Positions 41,560 through 60,390 of a DNA stretch of 64,000 nucleotides are shown here, piece after piece. Each line of letters begins with the position of its first letter. Position 1 is the stretch's first letter. The notes under the pieces were generated by a model. The model was not told the DNA's origin. It searched no databases and saw only the letters and a list, made by a program, of their open reading frames with translations. Location: assembly GCA_947184155.2 (NCBI GenBank), contig CAMXCT020002727.1:1-64000 (forward strand). The letters are read 5' to 3'. Source of the DNA: Cladocopium goreaui. Lineage: Eukaryota; Sar; Dinophyceae; Suessiales; Symbiodiniaceae. Both the position numbers and the translations under genes were made by a program.

Positions 41560-42700
41560 TATCTATCTAGAATGTGGATAAATCATGCTGATTCACTCAT
41601 CTGAAAAAAGGCTGCTTTGGGATAGCTGCTTCGTTGCTATTTTCGACCCATAATCAGTCGGTCCAGCTTCAGTCGTTACCGCTGCAATCTATGACAGCCT
41701 GCTGTGACATTCCCAAAGCTCACTGACACTGAACATAACAACTGGTTATTTAACTGTGTGCGGGAAATGGTCCATTTATAGATGATAAACAATGATGATA
41801 AACAAAATGATTTACCCATATTCTAAGGTTGATTCTCCCGCCATATTAAATCAGCAGAGGCTGGAGATTTTACATACCAGGTACCTCTTTGCATCCCAAC
41901 ATCACGACTGATGGTGATTTCGCCAAGCAAAAATGCTATAACCAATCAACATTTGAATAATACATGATGATATAAATTAATTATGGCTGGGATATGATTT
42001 ATTGATGATGGCATACATAAACATAAATCAATAACCAAAAAACATCAATCATCATAAAACTAGGTTGCTTGAGTGGAAATTCACAGGAAGCCCGTAACAT
42101 TTTTTTGCCCAAAAAACACACCGTTTCCACTCTCGTCATGGTCCTTTGAACCAATCCATTGATTTTTTGGCAACTCAAAACCCCCAAAAAAATCCATTGA
42201 TCCAAAAAAAATCAAAAAAAAAAACAACACATCCCCAAAAACGTTCCGCGAACCGGAAAGGTAATCATCGCATGGCAAGCATCGATCCGCTGTAATCATC
42301 GCAACGCCACACACCCTTTCTGGATGACAGTTGATCTTCATGGCACAATGGCCTGAGGCAAGGACATTTTTATCAAATGGATGTTGGGGAAATCTTCAAC
42401 CAACCATGATGTTCCACGAAAAAACCATTGAACATGTACAATGCTAGATATTTACACATTACTGTCAATGAAAAGGCAGTCATGGATGTTCTGACATGTA
42501 AATGTTCCCTGAAAAACCAATCCTTTGAAAATCATATGTACAAATGACATGAAATGATCAAATGACAGCAAAAAAAAACGATGTATTCCGCGAATACATC
42601 GTGTCACCATGACCACAGGATACCACTGCTTCCAGCTCCTCAGCCTGGAGGTTCCTTTTTGCTTTACGAAGATCAACGATATATGATGAGTTTACCAAAT
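41560..42700. other. Stretch without recognised genes
   Basis: Includes an eroded family H-like relic near 41.74-41.87 kb (ACTGGTTATTTAACTGTGTG). No convincing exon. Confidence 0.35.
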
Positions 42701-43536: not shown

Positions 43537-43670
43537 CTAAATCATACGAATTCTGCCCATTTCTTCAAACCCGCGACCATGGGGATCTCCGAGCAGCAGT
43601 TCCAGCTTCTCGCAGCAATAGGCGCCCACCTTACCTTTGCCCCAGCCGCGGTAGCCTGTGCCTTCAGGGT
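43537..43670 (-). CDS. Modular gene, module V type 3, terminal exon
   Basis: Acceptor ATACCTTCAG, then two bases and PEGTGYRGWGKGKVGAYCCE, KLELLLGDPHGRG, ending RIRMI and a TAG at 43537-43539. VGAYCC and LLGD match the type 3 pattern, and GWGKGKVGAYCC is identical to the exon at 55039. The two opening bases join the single base left by 44278-44346 to make an Asp codon, so the frame is continuous. The short tail after the module is unique and marks the end of the protein. Confidence 0.65.
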
Positions 43671-44128
43671 CTGAAGGTATCGTGGCCGGACTTAGCTGGG
43701 TTTGTTGAGTTACTCAACCCCCTATCTTGAGGGAATTGGCGGAATTTGCTTATTCCAGCCATTTGTGGGGATACACATCCAATTTATTGCTGCTTTAATC
43801 CCCAATGGCTGCTAGTTGTGTATTCATGCCTGTCATGCGGGTTACATCACATTCTTTCACAGTCAAATCATGTCAAATCTGTCAATGTTCAAGGAAGAAC
43901 ACAAAATCATTGGCGTATCTTTGGAAACTATGTTCATAACATACTCTATAGATTTCATCTTTCCAGAAAGAAGGTAGGTCAGTCATCCCCTTTGACACAT
44001 CTTGGACTCAATTGGGTATCCAAGCCATTTCAAGACAAGAACAATACGGCCGTAAGTCAGTGAAATCCCAATCTTTGCCATTGAAATCCCTAATTTTCCA
44101 GTGCGACCAGCGACCAAAGGGTAGATGG

Positions 44129-44254
44129 AGGTTTCCTAAAATAGCCTTACAGTTATCATCCATTTTATGTTCGGATCTTCCATGAAATAAAGTACAGTAA
44201 ATAAACCATAAACCATCCAGCGCGCTTGGGCTACCCCCATGACTAATAGGGAAC
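44129..44254. mobile_element. Family E element, copy 3 (intron of the modular gene)
   Basis: GGTTTCCTAAAATAGCCTTA on the left and CTACCCCCATGACTAATAGG on the right. It is diverged in the middle and lies within the last intron. Confidence 0.55.
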
Positions 44255-44277
44255 CCCCCAATGTTCCGCCGGCAGAC

Positions 44278-44346
44278 CTGAGCCGCAGCCCTTCGTGGTC
44301 TCTTTAAACCAGTAGCCCTTGTAATCCTTGAGCCATCCAGCAGCAC
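44278..44346 (-). CDS. Modular gene, module V type 2 exon
   Basis: Acceptor CATCTGCAG, two bases, then AAGWLKDYKGYWFKETTKGC and GS plus one base before donor TCAG|GTCTGC. AAGW..DYKGYWF and KGCG are the type 2 signature, found at four other places in the window. Here the first conserved Cys is lost unless the incoming base is T; with the predicted upstream donor the codon becomes Arg. The reading frame and length (69 bases) fit the phases on both sides. Confidence 0.65.
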
Positions 44347-44608
44347 CTGCAGATGTTCGTGATTTTCATTGAAGTTGTTTTGTTCAAACGGATGAGATGA
44401 TATGGTTTTTTGTCATGTAATTATATAATGACATACGTATAATTGTGCTGTATACGTTCATACTTGTTTAGCATTGTTTATATGTGTCTATATTTCATTA
44501 TACGAATTCTGTGGAAACGGATCAACAACACCTTGCCAGGCCTTGCCATATGTGTAGCTACGTGCACTCAGGGCTTTCATGACTAAAAAACCTAGGCGCA
44601 GATGCTGC

Positions 44609-44677
44609 GGAACTCGATCTCAGACTTGTAGCAAAGTCTGCGGTATCCCGCCGTCTTGCACGCTTTCCTGCCATGGT
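44609..44677 (-). CDS. Modular gene, module V type 1 exon (short form)
   Basis: Acceptor ACCTGGCAG, two bases, then HGRKACKTAGYRRLCYKSEI and EF plus one base before a GC donor (TTCC|GCAGC). AC.TAGY.RLC.KSE matches type 1, but the PYVY start is missing, so this exon is a shortened form or its first part lies in an unseen exon. Phases fit 45341-45391 upstream and 44278-44346 downstream. Confidence 0.5.
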
Positions 44678-44717
44678 CTGCCAGGTAATGAAGCCCACTG
44701 CGCAGGGACGAGGAGAT

Positions 44718-44880
44718 GGCACGATGTGCCCACAAGTTATGTTGGTTTATGAAGCCCATTCAGTGTAAACACCATGACCTACACTTCGAAGTTATAAGCT
44801 ATATCATGTTGTATTAGAGTCTGAAAGTTATAAAATGTTTTAAATTTATAAAGCAACTTAGCTAACTGTGTGGCACCACC
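44718..44880. mobile_element. Family C element, copy 4 (intron)
   Basis: GGCACGATGTGCCCACAAGT to AGCTAACTGTGTGGCACCAC. The ends are recognisable but eroded. It lies between exons 44609-44677 and 45341-45391. Confidence 0.5.
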
Positions 44881-45340
44881 TTCTAAGTTTGGTCTTGAAA
44901 TTCACGAGGTGCCATGCAACTTCACATCTTGCAAGTCACTGCAGTTTTCAAAAACGCAGTGCGACCAAGAGACTCAGCTTTCTCACGCGTTTCGTAGACG
45001 TAGGGATGGTTTTTCGGCTTTTCTCAGATGTGTCAAACATGACAAGGCGATAATTCAAAACAAAGAAACATATCGTATGTGAAACATACCCTCTTATCTT
45101 TAAGATACTATAACATAGCTCTTGCAAATGCAAATGATTTGCCTAGGTGCTTTTCCACATGTCAAAGTACCAGTATGTGAGATGTATAGTGGCTTGTTGA
45201 TCCCCTGTTTCAAGTTTGACTTTTGGCGTGATATGTATGTAGCAAAGCCAGCTGAAGGAAACTGCACGTGGAATCCAAAAACTTGTTTGTCGAACATGCC
45301 ACAAAGCGAGAACGACTCAGCGGCAATATCTCCAGGGTGC

Positions 45341-45391
45341 TCAGATCCCCAATGTATTTCACATTGGTGCTGGGGCTGCAGCAGTAAGCTC
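45341..45391 (-). CDS. Modular gene, module IV type 3 exon
   Basis: Acceptor AACTGAGGCAG, two bases (GA), then AYCCSPSTNVKYIGDL and one base before a GC donor (CTGA|GCACC). GAYCC and YIGDL define type 3. The frame stays open further (STLEILPLSRSRF), so a later GT donor (TTT|GTGGCA) is possible. The exon is separated from its type 2 partner at 50882-50983 by an intron of about 5.5 kb filled with repeats. Confidence 0.6.
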
Positions 45392-45446
45392 CTGCCTCAG
45401 TTCGATTTTTTCGTCTTGGTTCCAAGAGTAAAGAACTCAACACCAA

Positions 45447-45745
45447 GATGTCCAAACGGGTGTCCAATAAGCACCCCCTAGAACGGGTGTCCATTAGGCA
45501 CCTCTTACTTTTTAAGGTCCTGAACCAACAGATAATGAGGTATTCACAGTAGTATGTGCATTTGTCTTTGATTTCCACACGTTTGTTTCCAAAAATGCGT
45601 GTCATTTCGTGTCATTGCCGTGTCGTGTCGGTCATAAGGGGTTTTGAGTTTTTTGTGGGAAATCAAGAAAAACATGCGTGTCATTGCGATGTCATTGCAG
45701 TGTCGCGTCGGTCGGTGGGGGGTGTCCAATAAGCACCCAAACTTT
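45447..45745. repeat. Family M repeat block, copy 2
   Basis: Contains GGGTGTCCAATAAGCACCCC, GGGTGTCCATTAGGCACC and two GTGTCATTGC/GTGTCGTGTCGG runs. The words are shared with 37022-37512 and 50337-50610. Confidence 0.6.
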
Positions 45746-45879
45746 TGCAGTCGATTGTGGGGTAGCTGACTTTGATTTGGGGACATCACTGTCAGGTCTG
45801 AATTGAACAATTTATTTTTTCATATCCGAGTGCTCCCCAAAGGTAAAACTCCCTGGGGAATAAAACTGTATGTTGTGAA

Positions 45880-46310
45880 ATTCGTACAAGTGCGACATTT
45901 GTTATACAGGAGAGGCCCGCGCACACCCGGACCTGAAATCTGAAAGCAACACTTGGGTCAAAACCACAGCATACGAACGTTAATCAAATCAACACGTGCT
46001 CGCCAAAGAGGTTCCTATATATAATACCAAGAAGAATCAAATTTCTTCACTAGGAAGTGTCCAATCATGTCCAATCTGTAGCGTCGCCCCAATGCAAAAA
46101 TCAATGAAAATGCGCTTGGTGGAGAAGTTCCCGGATAAGCGCCTTTTTCTAGTTTATATCCAACCAAGGTCAAGCACATTCTGCTGCCGAAGAGAATCCC
46201 TAATCAGGACCGAAGCAATTACCTATATACTAAAAAACTTTACATATAGTTTCACATCCATTTTGAAGCAACCAAATCTAAAGCCTCAAACACATGGCCT
46301 CTTTCATTAT
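45880..46310. repeat. Duplicated segment S, copy 1 (uninterrupted)
   Basis: About 430 bases, starting ACAAGTGCGACATTTGTTAT and containing TCTGTAGCGTCGCCCCAAT directly followed by AAAATGCGCTTGG after a few bases. The second copy has the same two halves at 47512-47749 and 49857-50048, split by about 2.1 kb. A short shared peptide (MRL..KFPDKRL) may mark old coding content. Confidence 0.8.
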
Positions 46311-46839
46311 TTCAACATGTTACCAGCTAAGGTCAATGATGACGTTAGCCAGGACTCAGTTTGAAATATCCGATGGAAACTTGAAAATGGCAAAAACCAT
46401 TGCCAGAAGATATATATATATATATAATTTCGATTTATTAACTAAAGGATTTTTTAATAAAACCAATGCATAATTATAACCACGTATAGTCATATATATA
46501 TAGATAATTCACTACAATGAACCCAAAATGAAACATACAGCGACTTACTTGATGTTCCACGTATACATATATATATATGTGTAATTTATCTTGAACATAG
46601 CTATGTATGTTCTGTTCTGCATAGAGTTTTTCATGTACACAGCATACATTGTTCACATTCCAAATACCCACGCGAGCAAGAAACGTTAATCCATTTTCAT
46701 GGTCAGACTCCAGATCAATTTATTTGCCATTGCGGCTGGTACAGGCTAAATTTCACGTTGAGAAATGAAAATGCAGCAGGAAATCATGGGTAGTCATGTA
46801 TCACCAGATTTATGGATTTCCACCGAGAAAAAAAAAAAA

Positions 46840-47160
46840 CAAGATCAGCAGAACTCAAGCACACATTTTGTGAGGTGGAGTTCCGCCGAAAAAAAATATT
46901 TTCAGCAGAAATAGGTCCAAACATTGAATCAGCAGAAGTCCACTACACAAAACAAAAGATGAGTTCCGCCCAGGCAATGGTCTGAATACTAAGTTCCGCT
47001 GAGATTTTTTTCAGCAAAAGTCAGGTACACAATTTGTGCAGTGGAGTTCCGCCGAAAACCAAATCACACTAAAGTCCGCAAAAAAACTGTTTGCAGTCGA
47101 TTCGGGGGCACAGGATCTCAATTTTCCGCCGATTTTTTTCAGCAGATCTCATGCCCCATA
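46840..47160. repeat. GTTCCGCCGAAAA direct repeats
   Basis: GTGGAGTTCCGCCGAAAA occurs at about 46875 and 47041, with related GAGTTCCGCCCAG and TTTTCAGCAGAA words between. This suggests an old tandem duplication of about 168 bases. Confidence 0.6.
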
Positions 47161-47511
47161 ATCGGCCGCAAAAAAAAAACGCAAAGTCCGCAGAGATTTG
47201 TTTGGCAAAAAAATCTGAGACTTCAATGCCAAGTTCTGTACCGTGGACCCTACCCTACCTATTGGGGTGGCACATGTGATCGGGAGGAACTTGCCTGGGT
47301 AACCCTTTGGGAAACTCGTGTGGACTTGGTAATGGGCAATGTAACCACCCATTACCATGGTCTGGCCCCATGTTTATTTTTGAAAGCTCCATGGAAAGAG
47401 GGTTTAATTTAAGTATTCCCTTCCCCCGCCCCCTAATTAATACTCAAATCCACCCAAATAGTTGAAACCATGTTAAAGCATGTTAAAGCTTGGTAAAGAA
47501 AAAATAACTGT

Positions 47512-47749
47512 AAGTTGTACAAGTACGACATTTGTTATACAGGACAGGAGATGTCCACGCACACCCGGACCTGGAATCTGAAAGCAGCACTTGGACAAAA
47601 ACCATTTCAAGTTAATCAACAATATCGACATACGAACGTAAATCAACATGTGCTCACCGAAGAGGTTCCTAATATTGCTAAAAAGAATCAAACTTCTTCA
47701 CTAAGAAGTCAATTGTCCAATCATGTCCAATCTGCAGCGTCGCCCCAAT
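47512..47749. repeat. Duplicated segment S, copy 2, left half
   Basis: GTACAAGTACGACATTTGTT through CTGCAGCGTCGCCCCAAT aligns with the left half of 45880-46310 with scattered changes. Homology stops sharply after GCCCCAAT. Confidence 0.8.
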
Positions 47750-47899
47750 CCGCCGGCCTGCTGGCGTGTCTGATTGGAAGGTGTTGTTCTTGTTTCTGTT
47801 CTTGGTTTGTACTTGTTTCTGTTCTTGGCTTGTGGTTGTTCCTTTGTTCTCTTGCTGCACGTTTTTGCTTCGTCTGAATCAAGGTCACCCCCCCCTCAA

Positions 47900-48228
47900 A
47901 GTACTACATGTACTAGTACTATGAACTAGTACTATGTACTAGTAGTACTAGTAGTACTAGTAGTACTAGTAGTACTAGTACTAGTACTAGTACTAGTACT
48001 AGTACTAGTAGTAGTAGTAGTAGTAGTGGTAGTGGTAGTGGTAGTGGTAGTGGTAGTGGTAGTGGTAGTGGTAGTGGTAGTGGTAGTGGTAGTGGTAGTG
48101 GTAGTGGTAGTGGTAGTAGTAGTAGTAGTAGGAGTAGTAGTAGTAGTGGTAGTAGTAGTAGCAGTCGTAGTGGTAGTAGTAGTAGTAGTAGTAGTAGTAA
48201 TAGTAGCAGTAGCAGTAGCAGTAGCAGT

Positions 48229-48259
<31 letters not shown>

Positions 48260-48370
48260 CTAGTACTAGTACTAGTACTAGTACTAGTAGTAGTAGTAGT
48301 AGTAGTAGTAGTAGAAGTAGTAGTAGTAGTAGTAGCAGTAGTAGCAGTAGTAGCAGTAGTAGTACTAACC
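47900..48370. repeat. AGT/AGTACT/GGT microsatellite
   Basis: Complex trinucleotide tract: TAGTACTAGTACTA, then pure AGT, AGTGGT, AGC and AGT again. It translates to Val or Thr runs and is not a gene. Confidence 0.95.
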
Positions 48371-48429
48371 ACCACTACTACTACCACTCCTACTCCTACG
48401 CCTGCTCCAACGCCTACTTCGACTCCTCA

Positions 48430-49785
48430 GAAGCTTTTACACACGGAAGCTTTTACACACAAAAGCTTTTACACACAGACACTTTTACACACAGAAGCTT
48501 TTACACACAGAAGCTTTTACACACAGAGGCTTTCCCGGATTCCGTCCAAAAAGCTCTCCCCAAGCAGAGTGAAGGATTTTTGGTGTTTCTTAGACACAGA
48601 AGCTTTTACACACAGAAGATTTTACACACACAAGCTTTTACACACAGACACTTTTACACACAGAAGCTTTTACACACAGAAGCTTTTACTTACAGAAGCT
48701 TTTACACACGGAGGCTTTCCCGGATTCCGTCCAAAGAGCTCTCCCCAAGCAGAGTGAAGGATTTTTGGTGTTTCTTAGACACAGAAGCTTTTACACACAG
48801 AAGCTTTTACACACAAAAGCTTTTACACACAGACTCTTTTACACACAGAAGTTTTTACACACAGAAGCTTTTACACACAGAGGCTTTCCCGGATTCCGTC
48901 CAAAAAGCTCTCCCCAAACAGAGTGGAGGATTTTTGGTGTTTTTTTTACACACAGAAGCTTTTCCCCACAGAAGCTTTTACACACTTGCACACACAGAAG
49001 ATCACAGAAGCTTTTACACTCAGAAGCTTTTACTCACAGACACTTTTACACACAGAAACTTTTACACGCAGACGCTTTTACGCACAAAAGCTTTTACAGA
49101 CAAATGCTTTTACACACAGAAGCTTTTACACACGGAAGCTTTTACACACAGAACCTTTTACACACAGAAGCTCTTACACACGGACACTTTTACACGCAGA
49201 AGCTTTTACACACAGAAACTTTTACACACAGAACCTTTTGCACACAGAAGCTTTTACACTCAGAAGCTTTTACTCGCAGACACTTTTAGACACAGAACCT
49301 TTTACACACGGACGCTTTTACACACAGAAGCTTTTACAGACAGATGCTTTTGCGCACAGAATCTTTTACACACGGAAGCTTTTACACACAGAACCTTTTA
49401 CACACAGAAGCTCTTGCACACAGACACTTTTACACACAGATGCTCTTACACACAGAAGCGTTTACACACAGAAGCTTTTACACACAGAAGCTTTTACACG
49501 CAAACACTCTTACACACAGACACTTTTACACACAGAAGCTTTTACACACAGACGCTTTACACACAGACACTTTTACAAAAGAAGCTTTTACACACATATT
49601 TTTTTTTACACACAGAAGCTTTTACACACAGAAGCTTTACATAGAGAAGCTTGTACACACAGAAGCTTTTTACACACAGAAACTTTTACAGACAGATGCT
49701 TTTACACACAGAAGCTGCTACACATGGAAGCTTTTTACACACAGCAGCTTCTACACACAGACACTTTCACACACAGAAGCTGCAC
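48430..49785. repeat. 16-bp AAGCTTTTACACACAG array
   Basis: About 75-80 units of a 16-base repeat with a HindIII-type AAGCTT in most. Three copies of a spacer (GGCTTTCCCGGATTCCGTCC...) interrupt it near 48.53, 48.71 and 48.89 kb. Because 16 is not a multiple of three, one peptide cycle (LLHTEAFTHRSFYTQK) is read in all three + frames, giving overlapping frames of up to about 354 codons. Confidence 0.95.
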
Positions 49786-49856
49786 ATCAAACTCCCTTGG
49801 GGCCACCTCTCTATGGCCTGCGGGCTTGCCGAAGGCAATTAAATACAACAATAAAT

Positions 49857-50048
49857 TAAAATGCGCTTGGCAAAGAAGTTCCCTGATAAGCGCCTTTCTT
49901 TGAATTTATATTCAACAAAGGTCAAGCACAATTTGCTGCCTGAAGAGACACCCTAATCAGGACCAAAGTATCTACTAAAAACTTTACATATATGTTTCAC
50001 ATTCATTTTGTATCAACCGAATCCAAGCCTCAAACACATGGCATCTTT
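49857..50048. repeat. Duplicated segment S, copy 2, right half
   Basis: AAAATGCGCTTGGCAAAGAA through CCTCAAACACATGGCATCTT aligns with the right half of 45880-46310. Together with 47512-47749 it completes the copy. Confidence 0.8.
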
Positions 50049-50336
50049 TATTGTTAAGGTCCAAGACCACCATTTCAATCCAGTTCACCATTTAAGGTGA
50101 ATAGTAAAATTGTAGTAAATTCTACATTGAAATAATAAAGGGAAAACCTTGAAAATTGTGAAAACAACTCGGGCAAATAGTTTCTATTAATTTCAGGAAA
50201 CTTACCAAGAGCATGAAGGGGTGAAAGACGGTGAAAGGAATTACCCATTAAATCACACTTAAATTTTGATTATCTATGACCCATGATCTAGATCCTGAGA
50301 CCCCAATTCGATTGCAAAAGTTTACCCCTTAGGCAA

Positions 50337-50610
50337 ACGGGTGTCCAATAAGCACCCCTTGGAAACGTGTCGGATGCTTTTTGGACAACCCCTGCGCGTG
50401 TCATTTCGTGTCGATTTTGACTAGTTTTGTTTATTTGGGAACATTTTACATCTGACACGAAATGAAGCGCATGCATTTCTTCTCGCCAAAAATGAAGTCG
50501 GGTGCACCACAGATGCCACGCGGGTGAGATTGGAAGATTTCGGGTTGGAAATAATCATTTTCTCGTGTGCCGTCTCCATGAACGCTAAGGGGTGTCCATT
50601 AGGCACCCCT
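50337..50610. repeat. Family M repeat block, copy 3
   Basis: Begins GGGTGTCCAATAAGCACCCC and ends AAGGGGTGTCCATTAGGCAC, so the two ends are near-inverted. GTGTCATTTCGTGTC lies inside. It may be a complete element. Confidence 0.6.
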
Positions 50611-50687
50611 TAAGAATCTCAATTTTGGAAATTCACCAGGCAATCCTTTGAACATGCTGGGGATAACAGATTGACAGTTTCCCAGCG

Positions 50688-50732
50688 GAGGTTTCTTAAA
50701 ATGGGCTACCCCCAAGTCATCCAATTAATAAT
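50688..50732. mobile_element. Family E fragment next to a family A element
   Basis: GAGGTTTCTTAAAATGGGCT and CCCCCAAGTCATCC match the left part of family E. It stops where the family A element begins. Confidence 0.5.
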
Positions 50733-50836
50733 TACCCTCTGGTAAACTAACATAGCTATGGAAAATCACCATGTTCAATGGGTAAATCCACTATAAATAA
50801 CCATTTTCAATAGCTATGTTAAATTACCAGAGGGTA
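50733..50836. mobile_element. Family A element (intron of the modular gene)
   Basis: TACCCTCTGGTAAACTAACA to TTAAATTACCAGAGGGTA, TA on both sides. It lies about 45 bases downstream (on the - strand) of the type 2 exon's donor. Confidence 0.85.
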
Positions 50837-50881
50837 CACCATTTGAACCGGCGGAAAGGGCTGACCGCGCCTTTTGATGAC

Positions 50882-50983
50882 CCCATGGACGATAGCCTCT
50901 ATTGTCTCCGCAGCCCTTCGCGGTGCGATCAAACCAATAGCCCTTGAAGTCTTCCATCCAACCCGCTGCACATTTGGCATAGC
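50882..50983 (-). CDS. Modular gene, module IV type 2 exon
   Basis: Acceptor TTTTTTTTGGTGTCACAG is a textbook pyrimidine tract. After two bases the frame reads YAKCAAGWMEDFKGYWFDRT, AKGCGDNRGYRPW and one base before donor TGGG|GTCATC. It carries both type 2 Cys. The two opening bases (GC) complete a Gly codon with the single G left by 52456-52537. The frame stays open past the donor to the family A element, so a longer exon is possible. Confidence 0.7.
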
Positions 50984-51028
50984 CTGTGACACCAAAAAAA
51001 ATGGACATTGAACAATTGACACTACAGG

Positions 51029-51085
51029 ATGGTGCCCCCCAGTGATGTTTGTGGGTTTATAAACCCCATGAAAACTATAGTTATA
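51029..51085. mobile_element. Truncated family C element
   Basis: GGATGGTGCCCCCCAGTGAT to AAACTATAGTTATAAC is the left half of family C. The right half is missing, replaced by the flank of the family A element at 51104. Confidence 0.55.
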
Positions 51086-51103
51086 ACTTGCATAGACTGG
51101 ACT

Positions 51104-51209
51104 TACCTTCTGGTAGACTAACATAACTATGGAAAATCATCATTTTTAATGGGAAAATCAACTATAAATGGCCATGTTCAATAGCTATGCTAGTCATTAC
51201 CAGAGGGTA
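51104..51209. mobile_element. Family A element with shared left flank
   Basis: TACCTTCTGGTAGACTAACA to TAGTCATTACCAGAGGGTA. AACTTGCATAGACTGGACTTA at its left edge is identical to the flank of the copy at 23212. Confidence 0.85.
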
Positions 51210-51469
51210 GACTTCTTCAAAAATCTTGTCAGATTTGAAAAATGGGTCGATGCATGGTGATGTGGTGTTTTTTTTTTTGTCAAGATAGGCTTGAGGATAT
51301 GTTGATACTTGAGGCCGGGGGTGGATGACGAAAGCTAGCGGGGTAGGAGAAAGAAGGAAGGGAAGAGGTGAGTTGCGGAGGGACTGTCATCATCGTGTCG
51401 CGGCATTGTTCGTCCCAACGAGGATATAACAATGATATATTGATATATGATATAGAACAATGATATATA

Positions 51470-51670
51470 TGGGGGAGGGGGCAGGGGGGGTCCCTTTCGC
51501 GGGAAAAATCACGTGATGTCCTTGGGGAGCCCCGGAATACGTGCTAAAGCAAGAAGACTCTAGCGAGCTGACGCTAGCTTTCGTGATAATGACAATAATT
51601 GCCAATAATGATAAAATGTAATTGAATAACGATGATGATGATGATGATGATAATGATGATGATGATGATG

Positions 51671-51743
<73 letters not shown>

Positions 51744-51807
51744 GATGATGATGATGATGATGATGACGATGACGATGACGATGACGAGGACGATGACGAG
51801 GACGACA

Positions 51808-51844
<37 letters not shown>

Positions 51845-51857
51845 CGATGACGATGAC

Positions 51858-51895
<38 letters not shown>

Positions 51896-52140
51896 CGAGG
51901 ACGAGGACGAGGACGAGGACGATGGAGAGGACGATGACGATGATGATGACGATGATGATGACGATGATGATGATGATGATGATGATGATGGTGATGGTGG
52001 TGATGGTGGTGATGGTGGTGGTGGTGGTGAGGGGGGGGGGGCCCTTTCGCGTGAAAAATCACGTGATGTCCTTGAGCAGCCCCCCTAATACTTGCTAAAG
52101 CAAGAAGACTCCAGCTAGCTGACGCTAGCTTTCGTGATTG
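51470..52140. repeat. GAT/GAC array between two direct repeats
   Basis: A trinucleotide array (ATGATGATG with GACGAG and GATGGT variants, about 51620-52030) lies between two copies of an approximately 110-base block. Each block has CCCTTTCGCG, AAAATCACGTGATGTCCTTG, TGCTAAAGCAAGAAGACTC and AGCTGACGCTAGCTTTCGTG (51490-51587 and 52038-52136). The arrangement suggests tandem duplication of block plus microsatellite. It lies in an intron of the modular gene. Confidence 0.85.
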
Positions 52141-52455
52141 TCTTATCTGGCTCGTCCATTTTCTAAGCGGTACAAAGAAAGAAAGAATAGACCCTGAAAT
52201 CAGTGGCTGCATTTGCATACAAGCAGACCATGTTGTTTACAGTTTCAAGACGCGACATTCAAAACACGATTTCGACAGTCAAATCGGCACCACAAGATTC
52301 AAGAGTGGCTGATTATACTTTGCGCCGATTCAAACTAATTGTGCTTTGAATTGTGGGATCTACCTCCCAAAATGGAGTATACACCCAACCATGACAGGGG
52401 ATTCTGCGACGGGATGTTGCATCAAAATGGTACAGCTCGAGAACTTTTCAGCCGC

Positions 52456-52537
52456 CTTCGATCTCAAACTTCCGGCATAGGCGGTCATATCCAGCTTCAT
52501 GGCACGCTTCTGCTGCAGACTTTTTCGAGTCGTAGAC
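52456..52537 (-). CDS. Modular gene, module IV type 1 exon
   Basis: Acceptor CAACTCCAAG leads phase 0 into VYDSKKSAAEACHEAGYDRL and CRKFEIE plus one base before a GC donor (GAAG|GCGGC). It follows the exon ending KRY at 53269, so the junction reads KRYVYDSKKSAA, matching HPYVYETREAA in module I. The two type 1 Cys are present. Confidence 0.65.
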
Positions 52538-52579
52538 CTTGGAGTTGCTTCACCAGAGTCCCAGGCGGAGACTGCAGTA

Positions 52580-52679
52580 CCCATGACGGATCCATGGTGC
52601 TGGTATATTAATGCTAACATTTGGGGTATATGGATGGTAAATGTTACCATATATAGCAGCACCATGGATCCGTCATGGG
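52580..52679. mobile_element. Family D MITE-like element, copy 4 (intron)
   Basis: CCCATGACGGATCCATGGTG to CACCATGGATCCGTCATGGG, flanked by GTA (52577-52579, 52680-52682). It lies just upstream of the type 1 exon on the - strand. Both ends carry the same ATAGG-to-TGACGG change, so the inverted repeats changed together. Confidence 0.8.
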
Positions 52680-53268
52680 GTATGGATTGACTATGGATTC
52701 AATCTTCCCTCCGATATGTGACCAGCCGCACATGTTGAAAGACACCGATGCCACTCAAATGTTGAAAGCAGTGTTGCAAGGCCGTGATGCAAGTGCTGTG
52801 TTGAATTGCGTGTGATGCAACTCACTTGGCTGCATCTGTCCAGCAATTGCAATCTGGAAATAGGGCGAGTTTAAAATACGTCCGTCCCAATAATATAAAC
52901 CCTATGTGTATGGTCCCAATGATGTGGAAATTCCCTACATTTCCCTACATCCACCATGGTTACGTTTGGGGGTGTTTTACATATGAACCGGGGGAAGGGA
53001 TTATCATGGATTATCACCTATTAATTATATCATCAATTATATCCTAGATATGGATAGATATTGAATATCCCATTAATACCCTACAAATATCCCATGTCTG
53101 AATGTCTGAATGATGTACAAATATAATTATTAATCATATATTAAATCATATTAATTAATTAAGCTGGGATATATATATATATATATATTCTGTACAAATA
53201 TCATATCCCACTCGAAGAATCTCAGCTTTCTTCAGGCCACGCCAAGACATCCAAGAAATCCAAGACAC

Positions 53269-53343
53269 ATATCGCTTCGTTTGATCTGTCAGGGAGCCAA
53301 TCCACTTTGAGTTGCTGGCAAGGTTGCAACAGTAAGCACCCAC
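53269..53343 (-). CDS. Modular gene, module III type 3 exon
   Basis: Acceptor TGCGATCAG leads phase 0 into VGAYCCNLASNSKWIGSLTD and QTKRY, then donor TAT|GTGTCT. It is the cleanest type 3 exon: 25 codons, phase 0 at both ends. The 5' junction with 53611-53709 reads GGNKVGAYCC, which matches KGKVGAYCC inside the longer exons. The open frame continues past the donor (VSWISWMSWRG), but the donor is supported by the in-frame join to 52456-52537. Confidence 0.7.
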
Positions 53344-53610
53344 CTGATCGCAGGTGAGGAAAACCAGGTTGCGACACCACGACACCAGGTGAGTCTACAC
53401 GATTTATCAGAAGAATGTCAAAGAACAGGGATAAAATGATCCAACATGAATATTCTATAATATATATATATACAATTATAAACATATATAACCCAAAAAA
53501 TCTACGCTCATTCACCAACTTGAACAGTTCGGTAATTCTGGGATGCTTCCCTGAATCTTGACATCTCTTGACCACCACTTACATCCTGCCGCAGATCATC
53601 GTCGAGGCAC

Positions 53611-53709
53611 CTTGTTCCCACCCCACTTTCGCCAACCTGTGCCCGAGCCGCAGCCCTTTCTTCCTTCGGACATCCAGTAGCCCTTGTAGTCCTTAGCGCC
53701 GGCAAGCAT
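53611..53709 (-). CDS. Modular gene, module III type 2 exon, second part
   Basis: Reads MLAGAKDYKGYWMSEGRKGC, GSGTGWRKWGGNK before donor AAG|GTGCCT, phase 0. KDYKGYW and KGCGSG are type 2; the CAAGW start is not in this exon but lies in the separate piece near 53.98 kb. The 5' boundary is uncertain (GAAG at 53710 or an earlier AG), and no pair of sites gives a perfect type 2 join, so this module may have gained an intron or decayed. Confidence 0.6.
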
Positions 53710-53959
53710 CTTCGCATCTTCGTTCGCAATTCCCGCAATGGCAAATCAAGAACGCCCGCAAAGGGTAAAACCACAATTATCCAGAGGTAAATCATCCACG
53801 AATGGACAAATGGGATCAAATGGGATCAAATGGGCCACGATTATAAATGTTGAAAAAAAAGGTAAGTTCCTCAAGGGATCAAGGGTATGCCTTCGCACTG
53901 CATAGCACTTTTTTGTTTCTGTCAACTTGCATCCCAGTGTCGCTGTACCAGCCAGCCGC

Positions 53960-53986
53960 ACATTTGTGGAAGCCTGCTCAAATGGT
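53960..53986 (-). CDS. Modular gene, module III type 2 exon, first part
   Basis: Acceptor TTTGAGCAG, two bases, then FHKCAAGW and onward into an open frame. The opening phase fits the single base left by 54375-54477 (Gly). CAAGW is the type 2 start. The donor is unresolved: a GC donor within GGC, CTG|GTACAG, or CAA|GTTGAC further on. Limits approximate. Confidence 0.4.
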
Positions 53987-54374
53987 TGGCAGGTTGGGAT
54001 CCCTGATGGCCTGTTGGGATCCCTGATGGCCTGATGGTACCCACACACCTCAAACGTCGCGTCTGGTCGTTGCTTGGAAAAAACATCCATTGTGGTGATC
54101 ATTTTGAGCAATACCATGCCATAGCCACTTAAGTGATTTTACGTCATGAACATGGATCAGCCCCTCTGTTTAAAACAGATCAAAACTAAGAATGGATATG
54201 AACATTAACAGTTCACCATTACCATAACCACTAACCATTATTAATTAATCATTATTAGATAACAAGTATTTCTAATAATCAACAATAAATCTTCAATAAA
54301 TCGTTATTAGATAACATTAACATTAATCATTATCAAAACAACACAAAACAACCGGATCGTGAAGAACCCACCAC

Positions 54375-54477
54375 CTGATCCCTGACTCTTGCTGCAAAGG
54401 CCGTGGTAGCCAGCTTCTTTGCACGCCGTCTTGGCCGCTTTTCGGGTCGAGAAGACGTATGGATGGGCTTTGGTGTC
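54375..54477 (-). CDS. Modular gene, module III type 1 exon
   Basis: Acceptor TTTTCCGCCAAG leads phase 0 into DTKAHPYVFSTRKAAKTACK, EAGYHGLCSKSQGS and one base before donor TCAG|GTGGTG. It matches type 1 throughout, with both Cys. The frame is also open 5' to the family B element at 54522 (WNIDELICGGFSAK), so the exon could start at that element's terminal CCAG instead. Confidence 0.7.
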
Positions 54478-54521
54478 CTTGGCGGAAAAACCACCGCAGA
54501 TCAATTCATCAATATTCCAAC

Positions 54522-54624
54522 CTGGTTGGTGGTTGAGCCCTACCCCTCTGAAAAATGATGGAGTTCGTCAGTTGGGGTTACGACATTCCCAACTGAATGG
54601 AAAAAATACATGTTCCAAAGCTGC
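54522..54624. mobile_element. Family B element with 11-base target duplication
   Basis: Starts CTGGTTGGTGGTTGAGCC and ends TGTTCCAAAGCTGC (right repeat eroded). AATATTCCAAC lies on both sides (54511-54521, 54625-54635). On the - strand the duplication reads GTTGGAATATT, so the first copy offers a GT donor, and the element's terminal CCAG lies just before the second copy. Confidence 0.8.
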
Positions 54625-55038
54625 AATATTCCAACATGTTCGAAAATAGTTGCCCAAATTATGAAGCAACAATATGCAACAATATGCCAATCCTGACAAT
54701 CCTGACTCTGAAAATATCCAACGAAACAACGCCAACAATTTACTGTGCACATCCAGGTGATCTTGGATCATTGTCGCCTCTTTGTCACTGAGGACTAGTT
54801 TAATTGAAACGCTGATGAACCATAAAGACATCGGATAGCCCGTGTTCGGAGAAACCCATATCATATCCACATGGTTTTGGAATGTTTTGGGTATATAGTC
54901 AATACCCTGCTTGATCGTTTGTCTATGCTGCAGCAACAAATAGAACATTCATAATTTAGCCATAATATAATCTATTCTCTTCCCATGTGTATCCTAATAT
55001 TTTGTTTACAGTGCAACAATCATAGAAATCCAAGCAGC

Positions 55039-55117
55039 TTTCAAGTCCCCAATGTACTCGATGTTGTTAGCCGTGGGCGCGCAACAGTAGGCTCCTACTT
55101 TGCCTTTTCCCCAGCCC
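55039..55117 (-). CDS. Modular gene, module II type 3 exon
   Basis: Acceptor ACTTCCTGTCAG, one base, then GWGKGKVGAYCCAPTANNIE and YIGDLK before a GC donor (AAA|GCTGCT). It joins 55775-55889 in phase (AG+G gives Arg), giving GFRGWGKGKVGAYCC, the same arrangement as the terminal exon. The downstream join to 54375 is phase 0. Confidence 0.7.
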
Positions 55118-55774
55118 CTGACAGGAAGTCGTAGCACGCTGCCATCCAGTGCTCAGAGAGAGTGGTGCTCCCCCACTTCCAACCGGGATTTTAAACAGCA
55201 AAAGTGGTGACTCATAGTTGCTTCATGTTGGCTAAGTCCGTTTAGTTCGCAACGTATTTCACTGGTGGGTTTAAGGTATTAATATAATTATATATATATA
55301 TAGAAGCTAGTTGATTCCTGACGTGAAACTAAACCAACAAACACAACTGGAGGGGACCACATTGCATAACTCACTATGCCTTCAGCACCTGTTTGGAGGA
55401 TATTTCATCTTTGTGCACAGTTTGAGCTTCGATAACATGGAAAAAATGGAAGATAATAAATCAACATGCATCAAATTTCACTTACGTGGATAGCATTAAT
55501 CAACTGCAGGAATGACTTACAAAGCCGATCTCACCCATTCACAAAACAGGGGCCAATGACCAAACATCTTTTCCGGGTATTGGTCATCCATCCACTCTTG
55601 GTCCAGGGCTACAGGTTTGAGCATGGCGACCCATGGATCTTCGAGAACCTGCTGTTTTCTAGATGCTGAGTCTATATCCACATCCATAGAACCTTTTTGT
55701 ACATTTCACTACCCATCTAAGGCAACCCTCACCGTGATGCAAAAAAAGATGTGAAAAATCCCCGTCAGCCGCGC

Positions 55775-55889
55775 CTGAATCCCCGTCCGTTGCCGCATCC
55801 TTTCATCGTTCGGTCCATCCAATAGCCCTTGCCGTCTGAGAGCCATCCGGCCGCGCACCTCGGCAGCCAGCGGTGCCCATGTGGAAATG
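55775..55889 (-). CDS. Modular gene, module II type 2 exon
   Basis: Acceptor GAAACTCAG, two bases, then FPHGHRWLPRCAAGWLSDGK, GYWMDRTMKGCGNGRGF and two bases before a GC donor (TTCAG|GCGCGG). CAAGW..DGKGYW and KGCG are type 2. A stop follows shortly after the donor in this frame, so splicing is required. The opening phase fits the single base left by 56551-56644. Confidence 0.7.
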
Positions 55890-55933
55890 CTGAGTTTCAA
55901 AAAGGGGATGTGCCCCCGGCCACGATAGCGTTC

Positions 55934-56226
55934 AGTTGGTGCAACTAACTCCAATAAAACTATGGTTAAGTTGGTGATAACTATGGTTTATAGGTGATAT
56001 ATCTAGTTTATAACTCCAATTTCACTATGGTTAAGTTGGTGATAACTATGGTTTATAGGTGATATATCTAGTTTATAACTCCAATTTCACTATGGTTAAG
56101 TTGGTGATAACTATGGTTTATAGGTGATATATCTAGTTTATAACTCCAATTTCACTATGGTTAAGTTGGTGATATATCTAGTTTTCATGGGGATTAAAAA
56201 AGCAATTTATAACTGCGGGCCACCAT
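55934..56226. mobile_element. Family C element with amplified 65-bp core (intron)
   Basis: In reverse orientation to the copy at 20599: GTTGGTGCAACTAACTCC at one end and AACTGCGGGCCACCAT at the other. The core TTAAGTTGGTGATAACTATG...GTTTATAACTCCAATTTCAC is repeated about four times at a spacing of exactly 65 (56031, 56096, 56161). The same core occurs about twice at 20599-20766. Confidence 0.8.
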
Positions 56227-56550
56227 CGACCGTATGGACCGTATGGGAATGTATGGATACATCCATTGGGATGGGATGGGAGATTTCCGAAAAAGGACTG
56301 ATATCATGGCTACAATGTGCTGCCTCCCAGTTTCGGCATTCACTTCATCTCACTCTGGGTTCCCCCAACACCCCGGTTTCCTTCTCCTGCCCTCCCATAA
56401 ATTCACGACAAGCAAAAGCCAAGCATCTTAAGATCATTTCCTCTGGGAAAGCATGTTTGTTATCCAATTTATCCATGATTGACGAAAAAAATGGTCAGTT
56501 CACCAGTTCGGACCAATCCCGATCAGGTCGATCAAGGAGCTGAACATAGC

Positions 56551-56644
56551 CTTCGATCTGAGACTTGGCGCATAAGCCGCGGAAGCCGGCCTTACGACAG
56601 GCTTTTGCCGCCTTCGAGCGGGAGGAGTAGACGTAGGGAAATGC
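56551..56644 (-). CDS. Modular gene, module II type 1 exon
   Basis: Acceptor TTCGCCCAGAG leads phase 0 into AFPYVYSSRSKAAKACRKAG, FRGLCAKSQIE and one base before a GC donor (GAAG|GCTATG). It is a full type 1 segment of 31 codons, the same length as the module I exon at 58790. The open frame continues beyond the donor (YVQLLDRPDRDW) to a stop, so readthrough is possible. Confidence 0.7.
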
Positions 56645-56782
56645 CTCTGGGCGAAACGGCTTGGGCGAAACGGCTCCGCGGATTTTGGCCGTTAAAAAAA
56701 GAACGCCAAAAAAGATCATCATCTAAATGGTTAATAATGGTTAATAATAGTTAATAATGGTTCATAATGCTTTATAATGGCA

Positions 56783-56853
56783 TACCCTCTTGTAAAATTC
56801 ACATAACTATGGAAAGATCCACCATTTTCAATAGCTATGTTAGTCATTACCAG
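56783..56853. mobile_element. Short family A element
   Basis: TACCCTCTTGTAAAATTCAC to TAGTCATTACCAG. The middle is shortened and the right end stops at ACCAG. Confidence 0.6.
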
Positions 56854-56929
56854 GTTTTTCAATAGCTATAGAGGAATTGAGGTCCTGAATTCGTCTTTTT
56901 TTCATAGACTATCAAGAATTCATCATGGA

Positions 56930-57050
56930 ATCTCCTGTTCTCCATGGGACTCTCGCCATGAACACAGACACACCAGGGATCGCCAGGGCACATCCGGGTC
57001 CTTCAAGCTGCCGATGTACCTTGGAGGATCATCCCATGGATCGTAACTGG
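56930..57050 (-). other. Possible stray type 3-like piece
   Basis: The - frame reads YDPWDDPPRYIGSLKDPDVP before stops near 56.93 kb. RYIGSL resembles the second half of type 3, but AYCC is missing and module I already has a type 3 segment at 58059-58273. It may be a decayed or extra exon. Confidence 0.25.
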
Positions 57051-57067
57051 TTCATGCAAATAAGTCC

Positions 57068-57152
57068 CATTAAACCTATGGTTTATGGCAGATATAACGA
57101 ACTAGTTTTCATGGGGTTTATAAACCCACTAACAAAACTGGGGGGCACCATC
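57068..57152. mobile_element. Truncated family C element
   Basis: AAGTCCCATTAAACCTATGG to CTGGGGGGCACCATCCTG. It matches the right two thirds of the copy at 42711. Confidence 0.6.
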
Positions 57153-57168
57153 CTGTGATATTTAGATA

Positions 57169-57273
57169 TACCCTCTGGTTATGACTAACATAGCCATGGT
57201 ATAGATGGCCCATAGAAATAGATGGTTTACCGAACTGAAAAATGGTGGATCTTTCGGGTATTTAGGTTCACCA
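57169..57273. mobile_element. Family H element, eroded right end
   Basis: TACCCTCTGGTTATGACTAA followed by GATGGCCCATAGAAATAGAT. The expected right end is not recognisable, so the limit is approximate. Confidence 0.55.
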
Positions 57274-57761
57274 ATTTATTAAGGCCTGATTCACGATGAT
57301 CTGGGATAACCCCACGGCCCACGGTCGTCGCGGCACTTGGACTTTCAGACTAGAATTATTCACCAATGACGATCCGTGGGATGATCCTCCAAGTGCCCTC
57401 TGGGAGTCAAACGTGGCCTGAAATCTGTCCAATCCTTCATAGAATGTTTGATGTTCAGCTAGAGAACACCCATTTAGTTCAAGGATTTCCCAGGCAGTCA
57501 TGTTTGATTACTGAGTACTGAAGGGTAACTACCTGCCGGAGCCAAGAGCTAAAACAAACTTAAAACCCTTGATACATCTGCATTCCAGTTGCAACATGGG
57601 AATCGTGCAACCTTTGAACACGTCTTGCTGAGTGCAACAAAAAAACATGTCAAAAGCGCGTGCCAGCACAACAAGCACAAAATGTGAACATCTCCTAAAC
57701 AGACCCCTCTTGGTTCAAATTCTTGTCAAATGAAACCTCTTTGCAAAATCAAGAATCAAGT

Positions 57762-57872
57762 TACCATCTGGTTATTTAACATAGCCATGGAAAATCACCA
57801 GTTTTAATAGGTAAACCATCTATTTCTATGGGCCATCTATACCATGGCTATGTTAGTCATAACCAGAGGGTT
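57762..57872. mobile_element. Family H element
   Basis: TACCATCTGGTTATTTAACA to TAGTCATAACCAGAGGGTTA. TTA occurs on both sides. Confidence 0.75.
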
Positions 57873-58058
57873 ATTGTTTATCTTATTGTGGCAACTGTAT
57901 GATCCATCCGGATCGGCAAGTTATGACAGCTGTGACATGCTGTGACGATTCGTCCACTTAAAAAAGAAAAACACTAATATACTGCTTGCTGGCAACCATG
58001 TCTACGATCTCTTGGCTTCTAAGGTTTGTTTTAAAAGTGTGAAATACTCCAACTCGAC

Positions 58059-58273
58059 TTCCGCTCTCCGAAAAAACTGTTCACTGCCGATTTTGCGATC
58101 CAAAAATCTGCCAAGTTTCTGAGAATTCATCGCAAGGTTACAGCAGTAGGCGCCCAGCTTTTTCACCTTCTTGCCGTTGCGGAATCCTTTTCCGGATCCG
58201 CAACCTTTCTTCGATTTCCGGAACCAATAACCCTTGTAGTCAGCCATCCAGCCATAGGCACAGTGGGACCAGC
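58059..58273 (-). CDS. Modular gene, module I fused type 2+3 exon
   Basis: Acceptor CCTGGCCCAG, two bases, then WSHCAYGWMADYKGYWFRKS, KKGCGSGKGFRNGKKVKKLG and AYCCNLAMNSQKLGRFLDRK. Types 2 and 3 are in one uninterrupted exon here, while in the other modules an intron separates them. This module therefore shows the whole second part of the unit without any splicing assumption. The 3' end is uncertain; GAA|GTCGAG (phase 0) is given. All four Cys expected of types 2+3 are present. Confidence 0.75.
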
Positions 58274-58675
58274 CTGGGCCAGGCTGGACCATTCTTCATC
58301 CATGGCTGGATGACATGCTAACTTAAAAGCATCAAATCTGAACAGATTTAAGATCTGTTACACACATCTTCAGTGATTTAGCCATGGGCCATGGGTCAAA
58401 AAAACATGGTGTGATTGGTTGCCACTATTGCCACATCAAAATCCGCTGGTAAAAAGCTGGAGCTTCACATCCCCCCCATGGTATATCTTTGGGTCATTTG
58501 TAATCCATCCCCATCAGCAAATCTCATAGACACGCCAAATGCCATCAGATACCATCAGATTCGACATCAGTATATGATATCACTATTCAAACATCTCATG
58601 TTTTGTTCGTTGATTTAAACCGTGTTTCAAAAAATGTTGATTTTCCAGCTCGGAAACTGTCAACATCTGTCAGAG

Positions 58676-58767
58676 CCCATAGGATCCATGTATGCTATAG
58701 ATGGTAACGTTTACCATCAATATACCCCCAATGTTAGCATATATACCAGCACCATGGATCCTATGGG
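58676..58767. mobile_element. Family D MITE-like element, copy 5 (intron)
   Basis: CCCATAGGATCCATGTATGC to CACCATGGATCCTATGGG, flanked by GAG (58673-58675, 58768-58770). It lies in the intron between exons 58790-58883 and 58059-58273. Confidence 0.8.
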
Positions 58768-58789
58768 GAGGGTAGACCCTGCCAGGCGC

Positions 58790-58883
58790 CTTTCACTTGA
58801 CTTTTGCCGCACAGACCGCGGTAGCCAATGCTTTGGCAAGCCGCAGTGGCCGCCTCGCGGGTCTCGTAGACATAGGGATGGGC
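58790..58883 (-). CDS. Modular gene, module I type 1 exon
   Basis: Acceptor CCGCCATGGCAG leads phase 0 into AHPYVYETREAATAACQSIG, YRGLCGKSQVK and one base before a GC donor (AAAG|GCGCCT). The single base joins the two opening bases of 58059-58273 to give Gly (SQVKGWSHCAYGW). This and the next exon define the complete module most clearly. Confidence 0.75.
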
Positions 58884-59373
58884 CTGCCATGGCGGCGGCA
58901 TGTTAAAACAGGGCGAGAAAATGGTATGATTTCTTGTTTTCCCGGGTGAAATGTAGGATCTTCATTGATTTTTTGTTTTTCATTGTCCCGGATCATGTGA
59001 AACATTCGATTCTTGAGTTGGGCATTTCTTTCAAAAGATCTGTTTGCTAGTTGATCAACCTCAAATCTTGGGGTTGAGGACTGCGTGGCTAATGGTCAAA
59101 AGCCATATGGCGTGACGTTTAACATGCAAAGTGCAAAGTCGTGTAAAGGGGCGATCCACAATAATGAATTGTTCCCCATTATCGACTATGGAGGCACGCA
59201 TATATCATCTAAAAAAAAGCAATATCCAATTTCATAAACCACAAATTGATACAATTTTGGTATCTTGGAGTTGCTAAAAGGAACAATACAAAACAACCTC
59301 CCGATTAAAAACGGCGCGGATTTCGGAAAATGAACAGATTCCCCAGGCGCCCTCCCTGGTTTTTTTTGGGCAC

Positions 59374-59430
59374 CTTTGAATCGGAGAGATCGCCCAAGTA
59401 CTGCCGCTCCGGTGGGATGTTTTGAAGAGC
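59374..59430 (-). CDS. Modular gene, partial upstream module, type 3 exon
   Basis: The frame ALQNIPPERQYLGDLSDSK ends at donor AAG|GTGCCC, phase 0, and joins 58790-58883 in frame (DLSDSKAHPYVY). YLGDL matches the type 3 end. The AYCC start is absent: a TGCTGC lies just upstream, but in another frame. This could be a diverged or frameshifted type 3 exon or the first exon of the array. The acceptor GGTGAG is tentative. Confidence 0.5.
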
Positions 59431-59870
59431 CTCACCTTCTTGCAGCAGAGATGCCTTGGGACGTGGGTTCATCCCATCACCTACCCAGCCAGTGCTTACC
59501 AATGCTGATCTGGTTGGTGCTTAACGTTATCAAAATGAATCAATTTACAGGATCACAATCTTAAATGAGCTATTTAAATATGGGTTTCTGCCAACCAGTG
59601 ATTTTGATCTCAAGTTTTAGATTAAGTGGAAATGTCTCCCAACCAAATCTGATAATGATACAAGTTGATACGATTAATTAATTATCATCATCTTGACCAC
59701 TTAAATGGACCAAAGATCACATTAGTGGACATTCGCTAAATTACATGTTATTGGTATATTTTGTTGGCTAACATACCATCAATCATGCCATGAATAATCA
59801 CTATAGTCGCTAAATTCATGCCATGATATCCCAATTACATCCGGAGCAAAAAAACACATATCCGAATTGG
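59431..59870. other. Stretch without recognised genes
   Basis: Upstream of the last recognised module exon. No type 1 or type 2 signature (KGYW, KGCG, GLC.KSQ) was found from here to the right edge. Confidence 0.4.
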
Positions 59871-60210: not shown

Positions 60211-60390
60211 ATACACCATTCTATGTCCGTGTCCCTTGAACAATCACCATAGTTTCGTGGTTAATTCCATCTTTTGACCATGGCACATGTGGTCCAGTGG
60301 TAACCCTCAAAATTTGTGCCAAGTCTCGCTGTCCGGCACCGAGTACTCCTCCTAGGAAAGGTGGAAAGTTGAATCAGCTGAAGACTGTGG

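Follow-up and report, generated by a model that had tools for sequence, protein, structure and literature searches.

A gene for a protein with five six-cysteine Link modules in the dinoflagellate Cladocopium goreaui

The stretch of Cladocopium goreaui DNA analysed here (the window, 64,000 nt) is the first part of an 88,751-nt contig in a genome assembly of 1.166 Gb and 6202 contigs. Its minus strand carries a gene for one long protein with five consecutive copies (A to E) of a module that we identify, from the profile score of the whole protein, the predicted fold and the arrangement of its cysteines, as a six-cysteine version of the Link domain. The Link domain is best known from animal proteins that hold hyaluronan. 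A first-pass annotation made from the sequence had described the module as three recurring motif types, each with its own exon type, and all three do lie on the minus strand in the order that it gave.

The gene could be traced with a database protein, P0020, of 765 aa, which represents a cluster of 50 sequences. The contig that encodes P0020 is only 2388 nt long, far too short for the gene with its introns, and is therefore most likely cDNA. In a protein-to-genome alignment that permitted GT, GC or GA donors and AG acceptors, P0020 residues 120-765 fall on 29 minus-strand exons from 63864 to 39805, with 644 of 646 residues identical; the joined exons form 1938 nt without a stop codon, and a TGA follows immediately. 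The single long modular protein that had been proposed is thus borne out, and its most likely cDNA-derived representative runs on the expected strand and includes the module exons. When P0020 was searched against its own 1.166-Gb genome, all 18 matching places fell on this one contig. Nine upstream exons past the window end account for residues 4-120, from contig position 69408 to about 64373, with one mismatch. The upstream alignment itself gave 122/137, because residues 121-137 belong to an exon inside the window and outside the aligned stretch; residue 2 is also different, and lies on a first exon whose placement is uncertain. The gene as traced therefore covers about 30 kb, from contig position 69408 to 39802, with three exons after the modules. 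The whole gene is larger than the 16 kb given in the first-pass annotation, running from beyond the right window end to 39802.

The five copies in order are documented by motif positions, by profile scores and by the spliced alignment. Profiles of the three exon types scored 42.6 to 79.6 bits at the 13 sites from which they were built, sites that match by construction since the profiles cover most of these exons. More informative are four sites outside the building set, three of type 1 (32.8, 24.6 and 24.4 bits) and half a type 2 exon (12.5 bits), to be compared with top scores of 10.7, 9.8 and 14.3 bits for types 1, 2 and 3 in 20 dinucleotide-shuffled windows. All four coincide with exons of the spliced P0020 alignment, and the five modules are therefore joined in one transcript. 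The order 1-2-3 is kept throughout, but not as a strict cycle of three exons: types 2 and 3 share exon 11 in module A, type 2 is divided between exons 17 and 18 in module C, and type 1 between exons 23 and 24 in module E. Two apparent defects, a module C type 2 exon without its cysteine and a broken module E type 1 exon, were rejected on the same grounds, the cDNA showing each type split over two exons. Among the exon lengths quoted earlier, 94 nt (exon 10) and 75 nt (exon 19) were recovered, whereas a second exon of 94 nt and one of 115 nt were not, the nearest to the latter being 113 nt (exon 21). All six cysteines per module are conserved as claimed, with 30 of 30 module cysteines kept in orthologues.

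P0020 consists of a hydrophobic start, an acidic stretch, the five modules and an 81-residue tail with six cysteines. The acidic stretch has 81 aspartate and glutamate against 5 lysine and arginine residues in the 230 residues ahead of the linker, and the module region has 36 against 81 in 454 residues, a net charge of +45; five other orthologues follow the same trend. By hydropathy alone, no signal-peptide predictor having been applied, the hydrophobic start is present in all seven orthologues examined (mean Kyte-Doolittle value 2.2-2.7 over 11 residues), and after it no 19-residue stretch in these seven rises above 1. The acidic stretch varies greatly in length between close relatives, and in P0024 and P0032 it expands by tandem repeats of a 34-residue unit. 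The tail (43661-39805, minus strand) is conserved in orthologues and had no match in Pfam (E up to 10) or among PDB sequences (E up to 1).

The module had been said to belong to no known family. That claim falls by the criterion that the annotation itself had set, a profile hit to a known domain: P0020 scores 30.0 bits against Pfam Xlink (PF00193), above the curated cut-off of 27, as do 10 of 34 scanned homologues, and predicted fold and cysteine pattern point to the same family. The predicted fold of a homologue is the Link fold, with TSG-6, LYVE-1 and the CD44 crystal structures ahead of ordinary C-type-lectin-like domains (CTLDs) by about 2.7 to 5.2 Z units. Four hand-joined single modules gave sub-threshold Xlink matches in three cases and none in the fourth, which was misjoined; matches of modules to SRP40_C, YecR, SCNM1_acidic and NCBIfam entries were judged to be chance. 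The EPN/QPD and WND motifs are the calcium and sugar motifs of calcium-dependent C-type lectin domains, and neither occurs in any of 58 distinct modules. The earlier suggestion of a small disulfide or metal-binding fold thus stands in its disulfide part, with no sign of metal binding of the calcium-lectin kind.

A census of 66 complete modules (57 distinct) from 26 proteins defines the cysteine pattern. The four cysteines at Link positions are present in all 57 distinct modules, in Link order and context (the first, CxxGW, CG and YC); for the first three the assignment comes from PDB profile alignments with aggrecan or TSG-6, and for the last from its position. Judging from these positions, each module most likely forms the Link pairs C1-C4 and C2-C3. 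The remaining two, the 'GLC' cysteine and the second cysteine of 'CC', are both present in 56 distinct modules and both absent from one, module 1 of P0003. Because they were lost jointly there, the simplest reading is that a third disulfide would link them. This four-cysteine module was also considered as the most Link-like of all and rejected as such, its 24.0 bits being no real difference from the 23.4 of its six-cysteine neighbour. Standing beside six-cysteine sisters, it offers a natural test of the added disulfide.

Table 1. Features of the five-module Link gene in the window.
Feature	Coordinates	Strand	Basis
Five-module region (A-E)	58883..43598	-	spliced alignment of P0020
Exon 1 in window (from P0020 residue 120), acidic N-terminal region; earlier exons beyond window	63811..63864	-	spliced alignment
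Exon 2, acidic region	63373..63402	-	spliced alignment
Exon 3, acidic region	63102..63146	-	spliced alignment
Exon 4, acidic region	62820..62882	-	spliced alignment
Exon 5, acidic region	62586..62627	-	spliced alignment
Exon 6, acidic region	61823..61846	-	spliced alignment
Exon 7 (12 nt), acidic region; least certain placement	60749..60760	-	spliced alignment
Exon 8, acidic region	60328..60351	-	spliced alignment
Exon 9, linker IPPERQYLGDL ahead of module A	59374..59454	-	spliced alignment
Exon 10, module A type 1 (94 nt)	58790..58883	-	spliced alignment
Exon 11, module A types 2 and 3 fused	58120..58273	-	spliced alignment
Exon 12, linker, modules A to B	56992..57019	-	spliced alignment
Exon 13, module B type 1	56541..56644	-	spliced alignment
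Exon 14, module B type 2	55775..55858	-	spliced alignment
Exon 15, module B type 3	55039..55117	-	spliced alignment
Exon 16, module C type 1	54375..54477	-	spliced alignment
Exon 17, module C type 2, first part (CAAGWYS)	53942..53973	-	spliced alignment
Exon 18, module C type 2, second part (DYKGYW...)	53611..53691	-	spliced alignment
Exon 19, module C type 3 (75 nt)	53269..53343	-	spliced alignment
Exon 20, module D type 1	52456..52537	-	profile match and spliced alignment
Exon 21, module D type 2 (113 nt)	50871..50983	-	spliced alignment
Exon 22, module D type 3, preceded by a 5475-nt intron that holds tandem repeats	45341..45395	-	spliced alignment
Exon 23, module E type 1, first part	44974..45022	-	spliced alignment
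Exon 24, module E type 1, second part	44600..44667	-	spliced alignment
Exon 25, module E type 2	44278..44346	-	spliced alignment
Exon 26, module E type 3, then first part of C-terminal tail	43598..43661	-	spliced alignment
Exon 27, C-terminal six-cysteine tail	42284..42352	-	spliced alignment
Exon 28, C-terminal tail	40142..40239	-	spliced alignment
Exon 29, C-terminal tail; stop TGA at 39804-39802	39805..39866	-	spliced alignment

Beyond this gene, the minus strand of 19799-39790, translated in three frames, had no Pfam match at E 0.001, in a scan that was confined to this interval and strand and that short exons would escape; Rfam and tRNA scans of the window were empty.

The introns bear on how the array arose. 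The 28 placed introns have GT (10), GC (11) or GA (7) donors, the only three permitted in the alignment, so that this usage is not an independent result; 27 of the 28 end in AG followed by G. These three are the predominant donors in a table column that we take to refer to Symbiodinium microadriaticum (PMC5177918). Counted after the first G, the donors of the 28 introns (39867-63810, minus strand) favour C at +5 (21), T at +6 (18), T at +7 (14) and G at +8 (19). With the five modules aligned, the 12 introns inside them occupy nine distinct positions, one common to A, C and D, one common to C and D, and seven private to a single module. Two of the private positions lie 3 and 4 columns from the position shared by A, C and D, and sliding is possible for both. 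In module A no intron separates types 2 and 3; modules C and E contain additional introns. Given this preponderance of private positions, the tandem duplication of three-exon units that was first proposed is not supported. Because of it, and of the missing intron in A and the extra ones in C and E, the modules were probably copied when they had few introns, most of which were gained or moved later.

Introners have been reported in Symbiodinium microadriaticum (PMC9860276). A comparison of intron ends with shuffled pairings gave no signal of target-site duplications (mean 2.46 against 2.37, p 0.31; runs of at least 4, 9 against 6.6, p 0.14). A 90-nt element occurs in three dispersed intronic copies, at 50732-50821, 51103-51192 and 57761-57850, the latter two 87% and 69% identical to the first, and is possibly a mobile or introner-like element. 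The 5475-nt intron at 50870-45396 holds a 6-nt-period array (47927-48364) and then about 85 copies of the 16-nt unit CAGAAGCTTTTACACA, the whole region spanning 47927-49781.

The joined modules, used as a query against about 5.8 billion proteins, retrieved 18 relatives. Another 13 and 4 came from two profile searches, each of which scored only about 8000 candidates. For two relatives the named source is Durusdinium trenchii. The module occurs joined to TSP1 repeats in P0003, to VWA in P0010, P0011 and P0029, to F5/8C in P0028, and to PT-rich stretches in P0002, P0005 and P0028. TSP1, VWA and F5/8C are typical of matrix and sugar-binding proteins. Homologue P0015 has ILAHEQAHNLGFSH ahead of a single module; we take this to resemble a zinc metallopeptidase motif, and no Pfam family reached E 0.1. 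A midpoint-rooted tree was made from 58 module sequences. In it the D and E copies of orthologues group by position with good support (99 and 94, the E group having five tips because two copies were identical), those of A and C do so weakly (63 and 69), and those of B do not. Since D and E group by position, at least part of the five-module plan is, by this tree, older than the split from Durusdinium. Scans seeded by short patterns yielded no confirmed relatives among 189 pattern stretches in prokaryote genome contigs or among 25 in IMG/VR viral contigs. In a viral fold library, Tupanvirus A0A6N1NY79 was the only match below 0.001 (E 1.9e-4).

Taken as a whole, these data lead us, with considerable confidence, to read the gene as encoding a most likely secreted protein with a signal-peptide-like start, an acidic stretch, five predicted six-cysteine Link modules and a six-cysteine tail, whose modules would bind and cross-link acidic polysaccharide. 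The signal-peptide-like start would direct secretion, and each module would fold as a Link module with the pairs C1-C4 and C2-C3 plus the 'GLC'-'CC' pair. The likeliest use of such a basic module may be to receive an acidic polysaccharide in a shallow groove that bears conserved aromatic residues, with one such site per module. A series of five could then cross-link this polymer in the cell coat or mucilage, in analogy to animal link proteins that hold hyaluronan in the matrix. The ligand is probably something other than hyaluronan itself. In TSG-6, sugar contacts include Lys11, Tyr12, Tyr59, Lys63, Tyr78, Arg81 and the Cys47-Cys68 disulfide (PMC3937638). Compared by sequence, the 58 modules have tyrosine at the Tyr59 position in 57, a basic residue at Lys63 in 40 and an aromatic residue at the presumed Tyr78 in 51; no counterpart could be assigned to Lys11, Tyr12 or Arg81. 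The segment that carries positions 78 and 81 is shorter.

Several observations weigh against this interpretation. Xlink scores fall below the cut-off in 24 of the 34 scanned homologues, the whole-protein score of P0020 is a sum of several weak domains, and none of nine single spliced modules (9.6 to 24.0 bits) reaches 27. Module E has SCNM1_acidic as its top Pfam match (12.9 bits against 9.6 for Xlink), and the first hand-joined module A matched SRP40_C better than Xlink (18.5 against 15.9). Collagen IV (0.0094) and a nanobody (0.049), both judged to be chance, outranked LYVE-1 in the profile search of PDB. The structure model that was used is that of a homologue; the one for P0020 had a predicted local distance difference test (pLDDT) value of 34 and was set aside. 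Two CD44 rows reach only 7.7 and 6.5 in VIA, close to other rows. The C3-C4 segment is about 6 residues shorter than in TSG-6, given what we take to be the last cysteine of TSG-6. The joint loss of the extra cysteines was seen in a single natural module, only the Tyr59, Lys63 and presumed Tyr78 positions are kept among the TSG-6 sugar contacts, and no result of the analysis points to dinoflagellates making hyaluronan.

Could the resemblance to Link modules be misleading? If the modules were a diverged ordinary CTLD, the resemblance would reflect superfamily ancestry or convergence on a short form. We consider this improbable, given the lead of the Link structures described above (smaller for the two CD44 rows), the Pfam assignment to Xlink and to no ordinary lectin family, and the lack of calcium-lectin motifs. 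The unrelated small disulfide or metal-binding domain of the first-pass annotation would suit the weak single-module Pfam scores and the two cysteines that Link modules lack; the agreement of Pfam, PDB profile search and predicted fold makes it very improbable indeed, as does the homologous module that is missing exactly those two cysteines. Nor do we give any real credence to the copies being decayed or silent pseudo-exons: exon boundaries are irregular and the introns large and repeat-filled, but the spliced frame of 765 aa is nearly identical in the window and represents 50 member sequences, and the module cysteines are all kept in orthologues.

The function and origin of Link-fold modules leave more room for debate. 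A distinctly less probable reading than polysaccharide binding, and one that we take seriously, is that the modules bind no sugar and act as rigid disulfide spacers or protein binders, with the charge split between the acidic N-terminal part and the basic modules driving self-assembly of a coat. That split, shared by the other orthologues, fits this idea, as does the partial conservation of TSG-6 contacts, and many CTLD-fold domains bind proteins. The nearly invariant tyrosine at the Tyr59 position and the partner domains, of kinds typical of matrix and sugar-binding proteins, argue instead for sugar binding. A further question is whether the modules were acquired horizontally, from a viral Link gene or from that of an animal such as a coral, or represent an older eukaryotic Link domain. 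Corals host these algae. Xlink is found mostly in animals, with anthozoans basal and transfers proposed elsewhere, for example to Tupanvirus (PMC12383584); a virion protein of a haptophyte virus is also labelled as a link-domain protein (PMC11953307). Against this, at least D and E were separate modules by the time that Durusdinium split off, and other proteins carry the module in several further architectures, so that any transfer would be old. We regard transfer as unlikely on balance; the tree that bears on it comprises these modules alone.

A 2025 survey of Xlink counted 14,579 hits, 97.6% of them chordate, with the remainder coming from metagenomes, viruses, bacteria, one archaeon and a small number of invertebrates; among the eukaryotes that have the domain it treats anthozoans as the most basal, and dinoflagellates are absent from its main text (PMC12383584). 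In the open-access literature, judged mostly by titles and the opening lines of abstracts, we found no report of a Link domain in dinoflagellates or Symbiodiniaceae, and no open-access report of a Link module with hyaluronan in choanoflagellates. Xlink figures in the domain list of a cnidarian survey (PMC8260672), and neither Link domain nor Xlink occurs in the accessible text of PMC10501577. Automated Pfam labels are already attached to these proteins in the database. The Link family is thus known, whereas the dinoflagellate host, the lineage, the third cysteine pair, the five-fold array and the TSP1, VWA and F5/8C partners look undescribed. More tentatively, and at somewhat less than an even chance, dinoflagellates may have an old six-cysteine Link lineage of their own, locked by a third disulfide, and use it for multivalent binding of acidic polysaccharide in the cell coat, the mucilage or the alga-coral interface, a matrix system like that of aggrecan and link protein outside animals. 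If Link modules are at home in algae of the coral-symbiont type, the domain is older than animals or has moved between organisms, and it becomes a testable question which glycan such an alga holds with five of them.

The closest counterpart of P0020 is an 'unnamed protein product' of Durusdinium trenchii (P0019, with the partial P0004), a record name that gives no function. It represents the same protein with five modules. The aligner puts its identity to P0020 at 62%, and where types 2 and 3 of module A meet, both have the same variant residues; its acidic region has 148 residues against 230. Other non-animal Link proteins come from viruses. Tupanvirus A0A6N1NY79 is annotated as 'putative neurocan core protein', and Tupanvirus Link domains have been placed near those of fish (PMC12383584); ORF195 of the haptophyte virus PkV RF02, a virion protein, qualifies by its table label of 'extracellular link domain-containing' alone (PMC11953307). 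Calcium-dependent C-type lectin domains have a related fold, with lower fold scores than Link and with the EPN/QPD or WND motifs that the dinoflagellate modules lack. In contrast to the Link modules of TSG-6, CD44, LYVE-1 and aggrecan G1, those of the dinoflagellate protein carry two added cysteines and a shorter C3-C4 segment, and they stand five in a row behind an acidic N-terminal stretch.

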